From the IMG/VR virus record IMGVR_UViG_3300031885_002484, positions 1 to 35,317 of that record: a stretch of DNA of 35,317 nt; one strand, 5' to 3'. The notes under the pieces were generated by a model. The model did no database searches, was not told the origin of the DNA, and saw only the letters and a list, made by a program, of their open reading frames with translations. A program made the translations under genes and the position numbers. The stretch comes from a virus. This document shows, in pieces, positions 3,205 through 26,471 of the stretch (the stretch's first letter is position 1; each line of letters starts with the position of its first letter).

Positions 3205-4134
3205 TCAAAACGGATCACTATCTCGTAGATCTGAAATTTGTTGTAATATTTCATTTACTTTAACATCTTCTTTTACTATTTTTTGTAGTTTTAATCTTAC
3301 ACCGCCATATGTTATAGGTTTTCCTTTATTATCCTTATTTTTATAATCAACATTACCATTAATACAATTATGTGTTATTATTCCATTTGCGATGAAATTA
3401 TGATGTGGTGCCTTCATACTTAAATCAAATACTATTTCATTTGATTTATTTTCATATTTAATTATATTTTCCCACCTAATATCTGTCCCGACATCATCTA
3501 ACGTGATAGGAATATCATTAAGTATTGCCAATTGTAGATCTTTTTCTATTATTGTTTGTAATTCTACCCACTCTTGTGTAGTATAAAATTTATGATCGGG
3601 GGTTGCTTTTATATTTTTACCAGAAGTAGTAGTAATTTCTAAAATAGGTTTTTCGCCTTGACAAATTACATTACTAATTGTATTATATTTAATATTATGA
3701 TTTTGATCCATACAAGCAATTTGACGATTCATTATTGAATGTGGATTTAATTCCCACCCCATCCATAAATCAGATAGTCGAGCATTGCCTGCACTGGTAT
3801 AAATTAAAGTATCTCCTGTGAGACATTTTGTTATTGATGATTGATTAACGCCCAAAGTTTTAGCAATTTCTATTTGAGTTTTACCAGAAGCATACAGTTT
3901 AACAACTTCTTTTTGTCTATCTGTAAGATTATCCTCTATAATACGCCACAATTCTTTTTTTAATTGTTCTTCAAGCTCAGCAATATCGTCATTATATGAA
4001 AAAGGGTTTAATTTTTTATAAATTGAATCAGTATCAGAGAAGATATCTAATAATTCGTGAGGGTAGGATATTTCCAAAAGTAAATTTTGGTAGGAATCGC
4101 TTCGATTTTTTATTTTTTTATAATCTCTCATCAT
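3205..4134 (-). CDS. Sigma-region-4-like HTH protein interrupted by a mini-intein
   Basis: The 309-residue precursor contains host-protein residues 1-103 and 257-309, which would join to a 156-residue product. The host part has a charged N-terminus and then LTDRQKEVVKLYASGKTQIE, continuing IAKTLGVNQSSITK. This is a region-4 or LuxR-like helix-turn-helix of the kind found in sigma factors. Residues 104-256 are an intein placed in the recognition helix. After it comes CINGNVDYKNKDNKG and a charged tail. The ATG at 4134 has AAAGG five bases upstream, inside the end of the preceding GIY-YIG gene. A phage sigma factor or transcription regulator is likely. Regions 2 and 3 are not recognisable, so it could also be a different HTH DNA-binding protein, such as a small-terminase type. 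Confidence 0.8.
   Translation of the reverse strand: MMRDYKKIKNRSDSYQNLLLEISYPHELLDIFSDTDSIYKKLNPFSYNDDIAELEEQLKKELWRIIEDNLTDRQKEVVKLYASGKTQIEIAKTLGVNQSSITKCLTGDTLIYTSAGNARLSDLWMGWELNPHSIMNRQIACMDQNHNIKYNTISNVICQGEKPILEITTTSGKNIKATPDHKFYTTQEWVELQTIIEKDLQLAILNDIPITLDDVGTDIRWENIIKYENKSNEIVFDLSMKAPHHNFIANGIITHNCINGNVDYKNKDNKGKPITYGGVRLKLQKIVKEDVKVNEILQQISDLRDSDPF
3367..3825 (-). mobile_element. Mini-intein (153 residues, no endonuclease domain)
   Basis: All splicing blocks are visible in the precursor. Block A is CLTGDTLIYTSAG with the nucleophile Cys104. Block B is GKNIKATPDHKFY with Thr178 and His181 (TxxH). Block F is IVFDLSMKAPHHNFIANG. Block G is IITHN followed by Cys257, with His255 and Asn256. 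Only about 50 residues separate blocks B and F, so no LAGLIDADG or HNH nuclease is present. The key residues are intact, so protein splicing is expected. The insertion point (SITK/CING) lies in the HTH recognition helix, so the unspliced protein should not bind DNA normally. Confidence 0.93.
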
Positions 4135-5068: not shown

Positions 5069-5836
5069 TTAATGAATTAATGCTTGTTGCAACTCTTCAT
5101 CGCCAGAAATCGGTATCTCACTTAAAAAATCATCTAAATCTTTAAAGCCAGACGGAACATAAACGTTAGTAAAATTTGTATATTTACCATATTTCTCTAA
5201 TATTCTTTCTCTTCCGGAAGCTCCAGCCTCATCATTATCTAATAAGATTTTTATATTATTTGTATAACGTAATAACAATAGTAATTGTTCTGCCGACATA
5301 TTTGAAGAACCAACTGCTACAACGTTATGTATTCCTTTGTTATGAGCTTGAATACAATCAAATTGCCCTTCAACAATATATACATATCCCAAATCAATAA
5401 TATTTTGTTTAGCTTCATATAAACCGAACAAATGTTTACTTTTTTCAAAAGAAGTATTTTTATACTTTGATAGATTTATCGAAGCTCGTTCTTCATCATT
5501 TAACAAAGATCTACCAACAAGAGCTATAATCTTACCATATACGTCTTTGTATGGTAAGATTAAATTATGATTTTCTAAACTTGAAAATAATATTTTATAA
5601 TCGGAATCGATATTCTTCTCATAAATTAAATTACTTTCAATCAAAGTCTCTTCATCTATTAAAGAGAATAGTATTTTTAATTGATCCTGTGGTGGAAAAA
5701 ATCCAAATTTAAATTTCTCTTGTACTGATTTAGTTAATCTTTTATTTAAATAATTTAAAGCATCACTAGCTATTGGACAATTATATAATAAATTACTACA
5801 TACATCTACAATTGTATCATATTTATTTATTTGCAT
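5069..5836 (-). CDS. Toprim-domain primase half (DnaG-like, without zinc finger)
   Basis: The protein is 255 residues. It corresponds to the catalytic middle of DnaG-type primases. Residues about 90-150 match the RNA-polymerase subdomain (GKIIALVGRS, then KYKNTSFEKSKHLFGLYEAK). The Toprim motifs follow: VEGQFD with Glu156 and Asp160, and LLDNDEAG with Asp200 and Asp202, the metal ligands for primer synthesis. The zinc-binding N-domain of DnaG is missing here. A separate CHC2 zinc-finger gene sits at 24112-24675, which suggests a two-gene primase. The helicase-binding C-domain is also absent. The start overlaps the end of the zinc-ribbon gene upstream. A Toprim protein with another role is possible, but the YKN-F-K-LFGL segment favours primase. 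Confidence 0.85.
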   Translation of the reverse strand: MQINKYDTIVDVCSNLLYNCPIASDALNYLNKRLTKSVQEKFKFGFFPPQDQLKILFSLIDEETLIESNLIYEKNIDSDYKILFSSLENHNLILPYKDVYGKIIALVGRSLLNDEERASINLSKYKNTSFEKSKHLFGLYEAKQNIIDLGYVYIVEGQFDCIQAHNKGIHNVVAVGSSNMSAEQLLLLLRYTNNIKILLDNDEAGASGRERILEKYGKYTNFTNVYVPSGFKDLDDFLSEIPISGDEELQQALIH

Positions 5837-6161
5837 TTCCTAACATATTCTGTAACATTGTTTTAAATGGAGCACTTATATTAGTTAATTCTTTTTTACA
5901 AATTTTACACATAAGCTTATCTTTTTCTAGAGATGGAACTCCTTCAGCCGAACAACTGCCACATTTAACAGAATAAGCATCATTTGTTTTTTCTCGTTTT
6001 GTGGTTTGTCCTAATGTTTTAAGAGTATTTTTAGTAAAATGGGTTACATTAGTAATCGTATTCCCGCATTCTGCACATAGTACTGTTCCGCTTAAAACTT
6101 CTAATTTAGCCGCTTGTGGCTTCATACATCCCTTGTTATCGCAATTAATTATTACCGGCAT
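5823..6161 (-). CDS. Small zinc-ribbon protein, 112 residues
   Basis: Two pairs of Cys motifs are visible: CDNKGC near the start with CAEC at about 29-32, and CGSC with CKIC near residues 70-95. Each set fits a zinc ribbon. The rest is short and basic, with a helical C-terminus (APFKTMLQNMLGNANK). The family is not recognised. The gene overlaps both neighbours, DnaJ upstream by 17 nt and the primase half downstream by 14 nt, so it is probably co-expressed with replication and chaperone genes. Nucleic-acid binding is likely from the ribbons alone; nothing more can be said. Confidence 0.75.
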   Translation of the reverse strand: MPVIINCDNKGCMKPQAAKLEVLSGTVLCAECGNTITNVTHFTKNTLKTLGQTTKREKTNDAYSVKCGSCSAEGVPSLEKDKLMCKICKKELTNISAPFKTMLQNMLGNANK

Positions 6162-7137
6162 TTTTGAGTGCTCCTACTAGTGTAGTTATATCAGCCGGAT
6201 AATCTACATTCAACTGTATAATATGTGCTCCATCAGTATTTGTAACGCCACATTTGGGAATACTAATCTGATCAGAGTGTTTGCTTTGTGGTTTTATGAT
6301 AATCTCTTTATTACCATATAAAGTTTCTACTTCTTTAGTGGTACCTTCTAAAGCCTCTAATAAAGAAATAGTTAAGTCTGAATATACATCTTTCTTATTT
6401 TTAAGAAACATATTTTTATATGGAATAACTTTTATATGTACAAATACATCAGTATAATTATCTCCCATAATGTGCCTACCGGCGTAATTACCCTCGCCGC
6501 CTAATCTTAAAGTTTCATTATTAATACTTCCTGCAGGAATATTGATTTTGCCTTCTCGTTTTTCATTTAAGACTTTTTTACCAGAACAAGCAACGCATTT
6601 ATCTGTTTTTGTATTTTTGCCAAAACATTTATCACAAGATGTTTGAAAAATCATACCTTTATTATTTAAAGTCTTTCTTCCAAACCCATCACATTGATCA
6701 CAATCATTTCCAATCTTCTTGCCGCCTGAACCTTGACATAATGAACATTTTAAATTTCTATTGTATATTACTTCTTTCGCACATCCTAATACTGATTCTT
6801 GAAATGAAATTTCTACAGTTATTTTAATATGCATTGGTGGTGGTAATTGATCTTCATCACCTCCAAAAATACCTCCGCCATTATTAAAAAATATATCTCC
6901 CAAATCAACAACAGTATTCCAAAATCCACCTTGCATATTTGGTTGATATTTATTGGGGTTAGCTCTATAATCTTTTACTAATTGATAAGCTTCATTAATT
7001 TGTTTAAATTTATTTGGATCTTTTTTATACAGATCTGGATGATAATCCTTGGCAAGATTTTTCCATTTCTTTTTTAAATCATCATCAGAAATATCTTGAG
7101 ATACATCAAGTATTTTATAAGCTTCTTGTGGAGTCAT
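6145..7137 (-). CDS. dnaJ: DnaJ-type (class A) co-chaperone
   Basis: The 330-residue protein has the J domain at 1-60 with His33-Pro34-Asp35 (DYHPDLYKK), the signature that stimulates the ATPase of Hsp70/DnaK. A short glycine-containing linker follows (about 80-95). The zinc domain has four CxxC pairs (131/134, 146/149, 168/171, 181/184), and beta-sheet substrate-binding domains follow (INIPAGSINNETLRLGGEGN). It is slightly shorter than cellular DnaJ (about 375 residues). No DnaK is in the window, so it probably recruits the host chaperone to phage replication or assembly proteins. It overlaps the RuvC gene by 23 nt and the zinc-ribbon gene by 17 nt. Confidence 0.95.
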   Translation of the reverse strand: MTPQEAYKILDVSQDISDDDLKKKWKNLAKDYHPDLYKKDPNKFKQINEAYQLVKDYRANPNKYQPNMQGGFWNTVVDLGDIFFNNGGGIFGGDEDQLPPPMHIKITVEISFQESVLGCAKEVIYNRNLKCSLCQGSGGKKIGNDCDQCDGFGRKTLNNKGMIFQTSCDKCFGKNTKTDKCVACSGKKVLNEKREGKINIPAGSINNETLRLGGEGNYAGRHIMGDNYTDVFVHIKVIPYKNMFLKNKKDVYSDLTISLLEALEGTTKEVETLYGNKEIIIKPQSKHSDQISIPKCGVTNTDGAHIIQLNVDYPADITTLVGALKNAGNN

Positions 7138-22930: not shown

Positions 22931-24115
22931 TTATTTAATATTTTCTTTGTATTCTTGTACAATTAATGAAGCCAAATTTACAAATTCTTCTCGTAAATTT
23001 TCTTCAACTAATGAGGCGTAAGTTTTGATAGCTGATAATTCGGTAACAGTATTATCTATAGTTTCATTAATTTGTTTTTTTAATGAAGTAAACGTGCGTT
23101 CTTCTGAAATTTTCGAAACGTGAAATGCTCCAGCTTTATAAAGAGCCTTCTCTATTATCCCGCGGTCTATAGCATATGAAGCATTACTTGGAAGTATAAT
23201 GGAAACTTTTACAATAGAATTATTCATTTTACCCAGCTTTGCTAACTCTTCTTCGATGAAGGTCGTTGCATTTGCTTCCATTTCTGGCAATTGAAGAACT
23301 ATATTTTGTAATTGTCTAGTAGGTAATTGAATATATTTCAATTTTTCATTAGTGGATTTAGGATCAATTAATGCAATATATTTCTTATGATCCATCTCGC
23401 CAAAATCAGAAATATCCATACTGCCAATATGCCCTATATATGGTTCTTCTGACATTACTTGAAATTTATGTACGTGTCCCATTAAAACATAATCATATCC
23501 TGTAAACATATCTAAAGGACAAAATAATTCATTAGATAATTCATCTAATTCGTATCCAACTGGTATAGCGCCTTCTAGCGCCAAATGTCCAATTAATACT
23601 TTAAGACAATCTTTACCTATCGATTTCATTTCGTAAGGTAATTGAGATTTTAGTATATTAAGAGCTGCACTATTTTCATCAGTATTAAAAGAGCGTCTGT
23701 CTCTAAATGGCATAAATGTAATGCCGACATTATCAAGATTCAATGTAGTTATTTTTTTATAAACAAAAATATTTTCTATATCTGTAGATGATACAATATC
23801 TAATGGAGATGTAGTAAATTGTCCGCTACGCAAAATATCGTGATTACCAACAATAATATGTACAGAGATGTTATAATCTGAACATTTCTGTAGCCACTCT
23901 AAAAATAAAACTACAAGGCTATAATGTGGTTTGGGTTCTTCAAAGACATCGCCAGTTAATACAATATGTTGTACATTATATTCTACAGCTTGCTCATAAA
24001 CCCAATCAAGTAAATTAACTTGATCAGTAATACGACTATTTATAGCTGAACCGACAGATTGTTTTCCTAAATTTTGAGAGCGTCCAAGATGCACATCGCC
24101 AAGAATTAATATCAT
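22931..24115 (-). CDS. sbcD: SbcD/Mre11-like nuclease (T4 gp47 type)
   Basis: The 394-residue protein has the calcineurin-like phosphoesterase motifs in order: ILGDVHLGRS, VLTGDVFEEP, IVGNHDILR, IGHLALEG and MGHVHKFQ. These ligate the two metals of the nuclease site. A capping region and a charged C-terminal helix (about 330-394) that would contact SbcC follow. The start overlaps the stop of the CHC2 primase gene by 4 nt. The pairing with the SbcC gene directly downstream confirms the identification. Confidence 0.95.
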   Translation of the reverse strand: MILILGDVHLGRSQNLGKQSVGSAINSRITDQVNLLDWVYEQAVEYNVQHIVLTGDVFEEPKPHYSLVVLFLEWLQKCSDYNISVHIIVGNHDILRSGQFTTSPLDIVSSTDIENIFVYKKITTLNLDNVGITFMPFRDRRSFNTDENSAALNILKSQLPYEMKSIGKDCLKVLIGHLALEGAIPVGYELDELSNELFCPLDMFTGYDYVLMGHVHKFQVMSEEPYIGHIGSMDISDFGEMDHKKYIALIDPKSTNEKLKYIQLPTRQLQNIVLQLPEMEANATTFIEEELAKLGKMNNSIVKVSIILPSNASYAIDRGIIEKALYKAGAFHVSKISEERTFTSLKKQINETIDNTVTELSAIKTYASLVEENLREEFVNLASLIVQEYKENIK

Positions 24116-24675
24116 TTATAATCTTCTAATTTCTTTTTTAAATTTTTATAAAGCATATTCAATCCTCCCGGATCTAATACACGTCTATTTCTTATTTCAT
24201 CGAAAGCTGAAGATACGTATTCTGCGTAATCTAACGCCTTACTATCATCTCTGTGTTGCATAATAAAGTCTCGCACCAAATGTGAGAACTCCAAATATAT
24301 TCTATAATGATTAACAGATCGTTCATTCATATTTGATGTATTAATCTGATAATTATGAATTATTGATAATGCAGCATTATACTTATTGGTTTCATAATTA
24401 TCGTATGCCGCGATAAACTCGACCGGACCCCCTCCAGCCTTGCATCCAAAACAATAAAAACTATTTGTATCTGGATAATAATAAAAAGAGCCGGAACGTT
24501 CATTGCCACCTTTATGAAAAGAAAAGGGACAACAAGCTTTACGGCTATAAGTATCTATATTTATATTATGTGTATGAAGAATATCTAATAAGTTGGCAGC
24601 ATTAGCTTTATCAATGGTTTGTTTAACTACATCGACTTCAACATATGCTCCAGTGTTTCTATTTTTACTGAACAT
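24112..24675 (-). CDS. CHC2 zinc-finger primase half
   Basis: The 187-residue protein has the DnaG zinc-ribbon pattern: CPFSFHKGGNERSGSF (Cys49, His54) followed by FYCFGCKAGGGPVEFIAA (Cys75, Cys78). This is the DNA-recognition domain of bacterial and phage primases. The Toprim catalytic part is absent; the rest (about 95-187) is helical. The catalytic half is encoded at 5069-5836, about 18 kb away. The two could work as one primase in trans. The gene is followed by SbcD with a 4-nt overlap and is overlapped at its start by a possible 54-residue gene. Confidence 0.88.
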   Translation of the reverse strand: MFSKNRNTGAYVEVDVVKQTIDKANAANLLDILHTHNINIDTYSRKACCPFSFHKGGNERSGSFYYYPDTNSFYCFGCKAGGGPVEFIAAYDNYETNKYNAALSIIHNYQINTSNMNERSVNHYRIYLEFSHLVRDFIMQHRDDSKALDYAEYVSSAFDEIRNRRVLDPGGLNMLYKNLKKKLEDYK

Positions 24676-25738: not shown

Positions 25739-26263
25739 TCAATGACAGGGGCATTTTTTGTATTTTTTTCCAGAGCCACAAATACACAAGTCATTCGGTC
25801 GAGTTTTAACATTTAACGGATTTTTAACTATAGCCCTATCAAAAAATAATATACCGTCTAAATGATCTAATTCGTGTTGAATAGCTACTGCCATCAGTCC
25901 AGTTGCTACAAATTCGTGAGGAGCTATGGCATTATTAATTACGTGAATTTCTTCATATCGCATAGTATCATTTAATTGACCATCAAATGATAAACAACCT
26001 TCTTCTTTAAAAAGAGTTGGAGAATATCCTTTTTTAATTTTAGCGTTTATTAAATTAACAGATAAATTATTAGAACTATTAATTCTTACAATAGCCGCTT
26101 TTTTATTAATTCCGATTTGAGGGCAGGCAAGTCCAATACCCGGTCTTCCCATTAACATAGAATAGTTTAAGCCTTTTTCAAGTAATTTAATTAATGAAGC
26201 AGCCTCTTCGAGAGAGACCTCGTCATTTTTAGCTCTTAAAATCTTTTCATCACTTATTATCAT
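25739..26263 (-). CDS. def: Peptide deformylase with C-terminal SEC-C zinc motif
   Basis: The 174-residue product starts at the ATG at 26263 (GGA seven bases upstream); an in-frame GTG at 26281 is less likely because it overlaps the previous gene. All three deformylase motifs are present: GIGLACPQ (42-49), EGCLS (88-92, metal ligand Cys90) and QHELDHLDG (His130, Glu131, His134). It removes the formyl group from new N-termini at the ribosome. After about residue 150 the usual C-terminal helix is replaced by CICGSGKKYKKCPCH (Cys160, 162, 171, 173/His174), a SEC-C motif like the zinc tail of SecA. That tail can contact ribosomes and partner proteins. This fusion is unusual. Confidence 0.93.
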   Translation of the reverse strand: MIISDEKILRAKNDEVSLEEAASLIKLLEKGLNYSMLMGRPGIGLACPQIGINKKAAIVRINSSNNLSVNLINAKIKKGYSPTLFKEEGCLSFDGQLNDTMRYEEIHVINNAIAPHEFVATGLMAVAIQHELDHLDGILFFDRAIVKNPLNVKTRPNDLCICGSGKKYKKCPCH

Positions 26264-26264
26264 C

Positions 26265-26471
26265 TTAATTTCCGCAACCACTGCAACCAGACTTAGGTCT
26301 TTGTTTAGTTGTTATACTATTCAATCTCTTTAAACAAATAGCACACAAATTTTCAGTTTTTGAACAATTATCACATACTACTGGAAGATTAAAATATATC
26401 ATACTTTTACATCTTAAACAAATTCTTTTAGAATTAATTAACGCTAATTTAGTACAATTATTACATAACAT
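26265..26471 (-). CDS. Small multi-zinc-finger protein, 68 residues
   Basis: Five Cys pairs are packed into 68 residues: CNNC, CLRC, CDNC, CAIC and CSGC, so at least two zinc ribbons are likely. It is basic and otherwise plain. The stop ends one base before the deformylase ATG, so the two are co-translated. It might be an adaptor for ribosomes or RNA, but only the zinc binding is supported. Confidence 0.72.
   Translation of the reverse strand: MLCNNCTKLALINSKRICLRCKSMIYFNLPVVCDNCSKTENLCAICLKRLNSITTKQRPKSGCSGCGN

Follow-up and report, generated by a model that had tools for sequence, protein, structure and literature searches.

The window, a stretch of 35,317 nucleotides spanning IMG/VR record IMGVR_UViG_3300031885_002484, encodes on its minus strand a peptide deformylase that continues into a C-terminal SEC-C motif, a small cysteine-rich protein directly upstream of it and, further away, a trigger factor and a DnaJ-type co-chaperone (Table 1). 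The coordinates of the deformylase in an earlier note on this DNA proved right: the reading frame starts at an ATG at 26263 on the minus strand, comprises 174 codons plus stop, and ends with the stop codon at 25741–25739. The stop codon of the cysteine-rich gene occupies 26265–26267, leaving a single base between it and the deformylase start codon, as had been described.

Table 1. Features of the window bearing on the deformylase fusion (all on the minus strand).
Feature	Coordinates	Strand	Basis
Peptide deformylase with C-terminal SEC-C	25739..26263	(-)	174 aa; Pfam PF01327 and PF02810, AlphaFold2, Foldseek
SEC-C tail, residues 157–174, NDLCICGSGKKYKKCPCH	25742..25795	(-)	PF02810 match at 25751–25795
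Short linker after the GILFFDR (η3-like) segment	25796..25834	(-)	Alignment; E. coli tail comparison; pLDDT about 79
Ten-cysteine protein, 68 aa, CxxC pairs, possible zinc-binding partner	26265..26471	(-)	Relatives beside deformylase
Trigger factor homologue, full length, 420 aa	16719..17981	(-)	Pfam Trigger_N 2.9e-19, Trigger_C 2.4e-6, FKBP_C 3.1e-4
DnaJ-type co-chaperone, J domain and DnaJ_C	6145..7137	(-)	Pfam DnaJ 3.9e-13, DnaJ_C 2.3e-23

Residues 5–144 of the protein match the Pep_deformylase family (PF01327, E = 1.3e-28). All three deformylase motifs are intact, in agreement with the earlier note: motif 1 (GxGxAAxQ) as GIGLACPQ at residues 42–49, motif 2, with the metal-binding cysteine, as EGCLS at 88–92, and motif 3 (QHExDHLxG) as QHELDHLDG at 129–137. 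The catalytic residues Q49, C90, H130, E131 and H134 are all present and are unvarying across 64 non-redundant deformylase–SEC-C fusions. An AlphaFold2 model built with these 64 fusions as the alignment had a mean pLDDT of 94, and the best Foldseek matches to it were solved deformylases, including that of phage S-SSM7 (PDB 3uwa, E = 1.5e-11), so that the predicted fold is that of a deformylase. Among PDB deformylases, those nearest by sequence come from cyanobacteria, Bacillus and plants. The window protein is thus a peptide deformylase with a complete catalytic core, and is predicted to be enzymatically active.

Past motif 3 the protein reads GILFFDR-AIVKNPLNVKTRPNDL-CICGSGKKYKKCPCH. A profile search of the kind the earlier note had called for identified SEC-C (PF02810) at residues 157–171 with 27.5 bits (E = 2.8e-6), above the curated Pfam cut-off of 20.4 bits, and the final 24 residues searched alone scored 32.3 bits (E = 8.8e-8). 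In the model, residues 161–170 of the motif have a pLDDT of about 89. The metal ligands are arranged as CxCx8C-P-C-H where the usual pattern is CxCx8C(C/H); the first three are in place and the fourth is one residue off. The same displacement occurs in one other fusion (L046, as CSCH), with nearly all others having the standard pattern. When a fusion tail was used as the query for phmmer, the tails of YchJ and SecA came first. By sequence, the window tail has the same motif as YchJ and the SecA metal-binding domain (PDB 1sx0, 1tm6 and 1ozb), but it is joined to a deformylase and ends in CPCH rather than C(C/H). A genuine SEC-C therefore stands directly behind the deformylase core, and it is predicted to bind metal.

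The fusion is not a local oddity. Two IMG/VR contigs carry syntenic deformylases 75% identical to that of the window, with the tail kept (endings CSCGSNKKYKRCC and CICGSGIKYKRCC); the window genes with counterparts in these contigs are in identical order, and the ten-cysteine gene is 60–62% identical. Other fusions, a search for which had also been proposed, were sampled with DNA patterns for HExxH...CxCG and with searches for relatives, some of which used SEC-C itself. The resulting sample, which is enriched for fusions, comprises 154 distinct deformylases, most of them viral, and 107 of these carry SEC-C. Pfam matches SEC-C in 60 of the 64 non-redundant fusions, whose identity to the window protein falls as low as 25%; this, and its retention in the two close relatives, makes the tail more than a chance ending. 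Residues C160, C162, K167, K169 and C171 are unvarying in the 64, and C173 nearly so. The fusion tails have a median net charge of +7, and 16–35 residues separate the HExxH motif from the first tail cysteine. Several variants were also seen: in L042, L045, L052 and L053 the loop that separates the CxC from the CC ligands is longer (for example CICGKVDPRTKHPKKFKKCC), and in L023 (2917–3687) the SEC-C is internal, with about 80 more residues after it.

A tree was built from deformylase cores alone, with bacterial and cultured-phage references. The SEC-C label requires at least nine changes on this tree, three of them forced by strong branches, at a resolution that does not separate gain, loss and transfer. 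References without SEC-C, both bacterial and from cultured phages, sit between the fused groups, and a 634-kb uncultured phage record (LR745206.1) holds a fusion in a very different deformylase branch. The fusion therefore recurs in many divergent viral deformylase lineages. Searches of phage records returned it only in LR745206.1, and SEC-C was absent from the cultured-phage deformylase tails that were read (Kikimora, DLP6, S-SSM7, VP16T, Mx1 and Vibrio 1.250). Two fusions searched against plasmids gave 768 and 879 records, and the best 25 matches of each stopped before SEC-C. A pattern for fusions with a short linker of 40–70 bases gave no match in 84,980 genomes, but since it recovers none of the 78 fusions from the other scans, this zero is no argument against cellular fusions with longer linkers. 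The idea that the fusion is confined to viruses was abandoned, as the cellular absence covers short-linker fusions only. No paper describing a deformylase–SEC-C fusion was found in the openly licensed literature.

It is very improbable that the fusion is coincidental or decaying and has no function. SEC-C can be lost, as in four members of the window's own clade, and in the window tail the fourth ligand is out of its usual place; however, three cysteines and two lysines are strictly conserved over 64 sequences of identity down to 25%, and the fusion recurs in many lineages. The residue conservation already contradicts a functionless tail.

Helix α3 of the E. coli enzyme enters the groove between uL22 and bL32 on the ribosome (PMC12690207), which agrees with the premise of the earlier note that the C-terminal helix anchors bacterial deformylase to the ribosome. 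The window protein shares its catalytic core with this type 1B enzyme, and has GILFFDR after motif 3 where E. coli has GKLFMDY. From there the two diverge: in E. coli a basic helix α3 follows, whereas alignment places SEC-C at that position and has the window sequence run directly from the core into it. The model has no long helix past residues 140–143, so the helix that follows η3 in type 1B enzymes appears to be missing. Across the deformylases compared, unfused viral enzymes have at this position a basic helix, nothing at all, or a tail of the GRNxxVxVxx..VKYKxV type. Helical tails are present in E. coli, Kikimora, DLP6, Mx1, L069, L078, L080, L082, L087 and L090. The VP16T and S-SSM7 enzymes end directly after the core; fold and motifs of the huge-phage and cyanophage enzymes (S-SSM7, PDB 3uwa) are as in the window protein, which differs in going on into SEC-C. 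A helix and SEC-C were not seen together in any deformylase compared. The suggestion that the fusion replaces one anchor with another is thus well supported as anatomy, and the swapping of tails at a single position is the strongest sequence argument that helix and SEC-C share a role. Three enzymes (L108, L077 and L226, the last from LR756508.1) carry at the SEC-C position a tail, GRNDRVRVRNKDGVVSTVKYKYVSDQIENG, that has none of the SEC-C ligands and no significant Pfam match, and shares with SEC-C the GRN leader and KYK; these tails are possibly a metal-free counterpart.

That the SecA zinc tail can contact ribosomes, as the earlier note stated, is a published result. When fused to SUMO, the metal-binding domain of SecA on its own cosediments with ribosomes; AMS modification of the metal-site cysteines in the SecA tail abolishes this cosedimentation, and the tail can be crosslinked to uL23 (PMC6620043). 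The NCBIfam model NF008970 (PRK12318; methionyl aminopeptidase, 291 positions) matches SEC-C at positions 2–18 and 2–23, so that a SEC-C form exists of each of the two enzymes that carry out N-terminal methionine excision, although in the aminopeptidase the motif is N-terminal and on an unrelated fold. Yeast Map1 places N-terminal zinc fingers next to eL22 on the ribosome (PMC10118133). No phage methionine aminopeptidase with SEC-C was present among those read, and that candidate was rejected.

Taken with the intact core, the position of SEC-C at that of α3, the invariant residues, the basic tail and the recurrence of the fusion, these precedents point to the SEC-C tail standing in for the C-terminal helix as a ribosome anchor close to the exit tunnel. 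We put the probability of this reading at roughly 60%. A SecA-type metal knuckle would take the place of the ribosome-binding helix, and the lysine-rich, metal-bound tail would dock on the large subunit beside the exit tunnel. Docking would probably occur at uL23/uL29, the side on which crosslinks of SecA and of its tail have been reported, and not in the uL22/bL32 groove of the E. coli enzyme. The tail would thereby keep the phage enzyme near the emerging formyl-methionine. Competition with the host deformylase, which had been proposed, is possible. Several observations weaken the anchor reading. Isolated SEC-C has weak affinity for ribosomes, and SecA from which it was removed keeps its affinity (PMC6620043). 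The motif is also found in YecA and YchJ, two proteins of unsettled function, and binds SecB when part of SecA (PMC8076867). An anchor is also not always needed, since certain viral deformylases without any tail are active in vivo (PMC5591237).

A structural or metal-handling role with no partner is also conceivable, though we regard it as unlikely: a zinc or iron knuckle might cap the shortened C-terminus, hold the η3 segment or load the Fe(II) site. The C-terminal end can control activity in a viral deformylase, that of VP16 (PMC5591237), and SecA-like metal-binding domains bind iron in vivo, according to Cranford-Smith 2020 as relayed in PMC8076867. Packing of the knuckle on the core fits poorly with a linker that is modelled at a pLDDT of only about 79 and varies across the fusions over the 16–35 residues given above, and the conserved residues other than ligands are lysines, as expected of a surface facing RNA or the ribosome.

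The remaining alternative is that the tail is a docking site for another protein, which could be host SecB (as for SecA and perhaps for YecA) or the ten-cysteine protein of the phage; the deformylase would then be directed to one class of nascent chains instead of to every ribosome. SecA needs its metal-binding domain to bind SecB (PMC6620043; PMC8076867), but many such domains are conserved in species that lack SecB (PMC6620043). The ten-cysteine protein matches no Pfam family above cut-off. In 28 of 36 members of the window's clade, relatives of it are encoded upstream, next to the deformylase gene. They accompany 28 of the 32 fused members and none of the four unfused ones (p = 0.001 if members are treated as independent, a figure confounded by the shared subclade of the unfused four). 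At least three fused members of that same subclade (L056, L060 and L166) retain SEC-C and lack the neighbour too, so co-occurrence was rejected as proof of partnership. Most fusion lineages, moreover, lie outside the clade, to which the neighbour counts are limited. Of the proposal that this zinc-finger neighbour is a partner, the conserved adjacency stands, while the association with SEC-C is confounded by subclade; a partnership with the deformylase is no more than suggestive. Docking on either protein as the main role of the tail is, in our judgement, improbable.

The anchor reading draws further support from the genomes in which the fusion is found. The window falls within a clade of huge phages, recognised as phages by the terminase and sheath-like proteins of its larger relatives, although most of the sheath matches fall under the curated cut-off. 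Its trigger factor has the ribosome-docking signature GFRPGK, with the N-terminal ribosome-binding, PPIase-like and C-terminal domains all matched, and GFRxGK is kept in nearly all trigger factors read from relatives. A single-sequence scan for viral relatives of this protein found none, but a profile search of the clade contigs did. Trigger factor is encoded in 38 of 38 clade contigs (the window; G002, one of the two syntenic relatives, in which it is 60% identical; 29 further contigs; and seven more of which four lack SEC-C), and none of the 41 non-clade contigs covered by the same two surveys encodes one. The clade proteins include that of the window and L009, L010, L191–L210 and L295–L299. 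It lies 8.3 kb from the deformylase in the window and 8.7–12.6 kb from it in 29 other clade contigs measured. Methionine aminopeptidase is present in 12 of 13 clade contigs longer than 200 kb (G002 152496–153182, L011; L212–L222), elsewhere in the genome than the deformylase. The linked trigger factor and the aminopeptidase support the anchor reading, and the persistence of trigger factor in the four members without SEC-C weakens it. Should the tail act as an anchor, the phage would have factors of its own to deformylate, trim and chaperone its proteins as the host supply falls behind.

A wider and more tentative proposal, to which we give distinctly less than even odds, is that this clade brings a complete exit-tunnel station of its own, consisting of deformylase, methionine aminopeptidase and trigger factor. 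SEC-C would then serve as a transferable tag for ribosome docking that viral deformylases have acquired again and again. It would bring them to uL23/uL29, unlike the host enzyme, and phage and host could process N-termini without competing for one site. The presence of deformylase in huge phages is itself known: the survey of Al-Shayeb 2020 (PMC7162821) names it among translation genes and makes no mention of SEC-C, trigger factor or methionine aminopeptidase. The many viral enzymes without a ribosome-binding tail sharpen the question why phages carry a deformylase at all, and the recurrent swap from helix to SEC-C suggests that tethering matters to many of these viruses. Enzymes with SEC-C, helical or no tails form a natural set for testing this, and the fusions allow the SecA tail to be studied apart from SecA: were SEC-C by itself able to bring an unrelated enzyme to the ribosome, it would be a docking tag of general use. 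Judging by the linked trigger factor and the aminopeptidase, takeover by these phages may extend beyond initiation and elongation to the first steps after synthesis.

Other genes of the window include the DnaJ-type co-chaperone, which is also kept in G002. A helix-turn-helix, sigma-region-4-like protein encoded at 3205–4134 on the minus strand has an intein splicing domain inserted. The primase is split over two minus-strand genes 18 kb apart (5069–5836 and 24112–24675), which comprise a CHC2 zinc-ribbon part and a catalytic/TOPRIM part.
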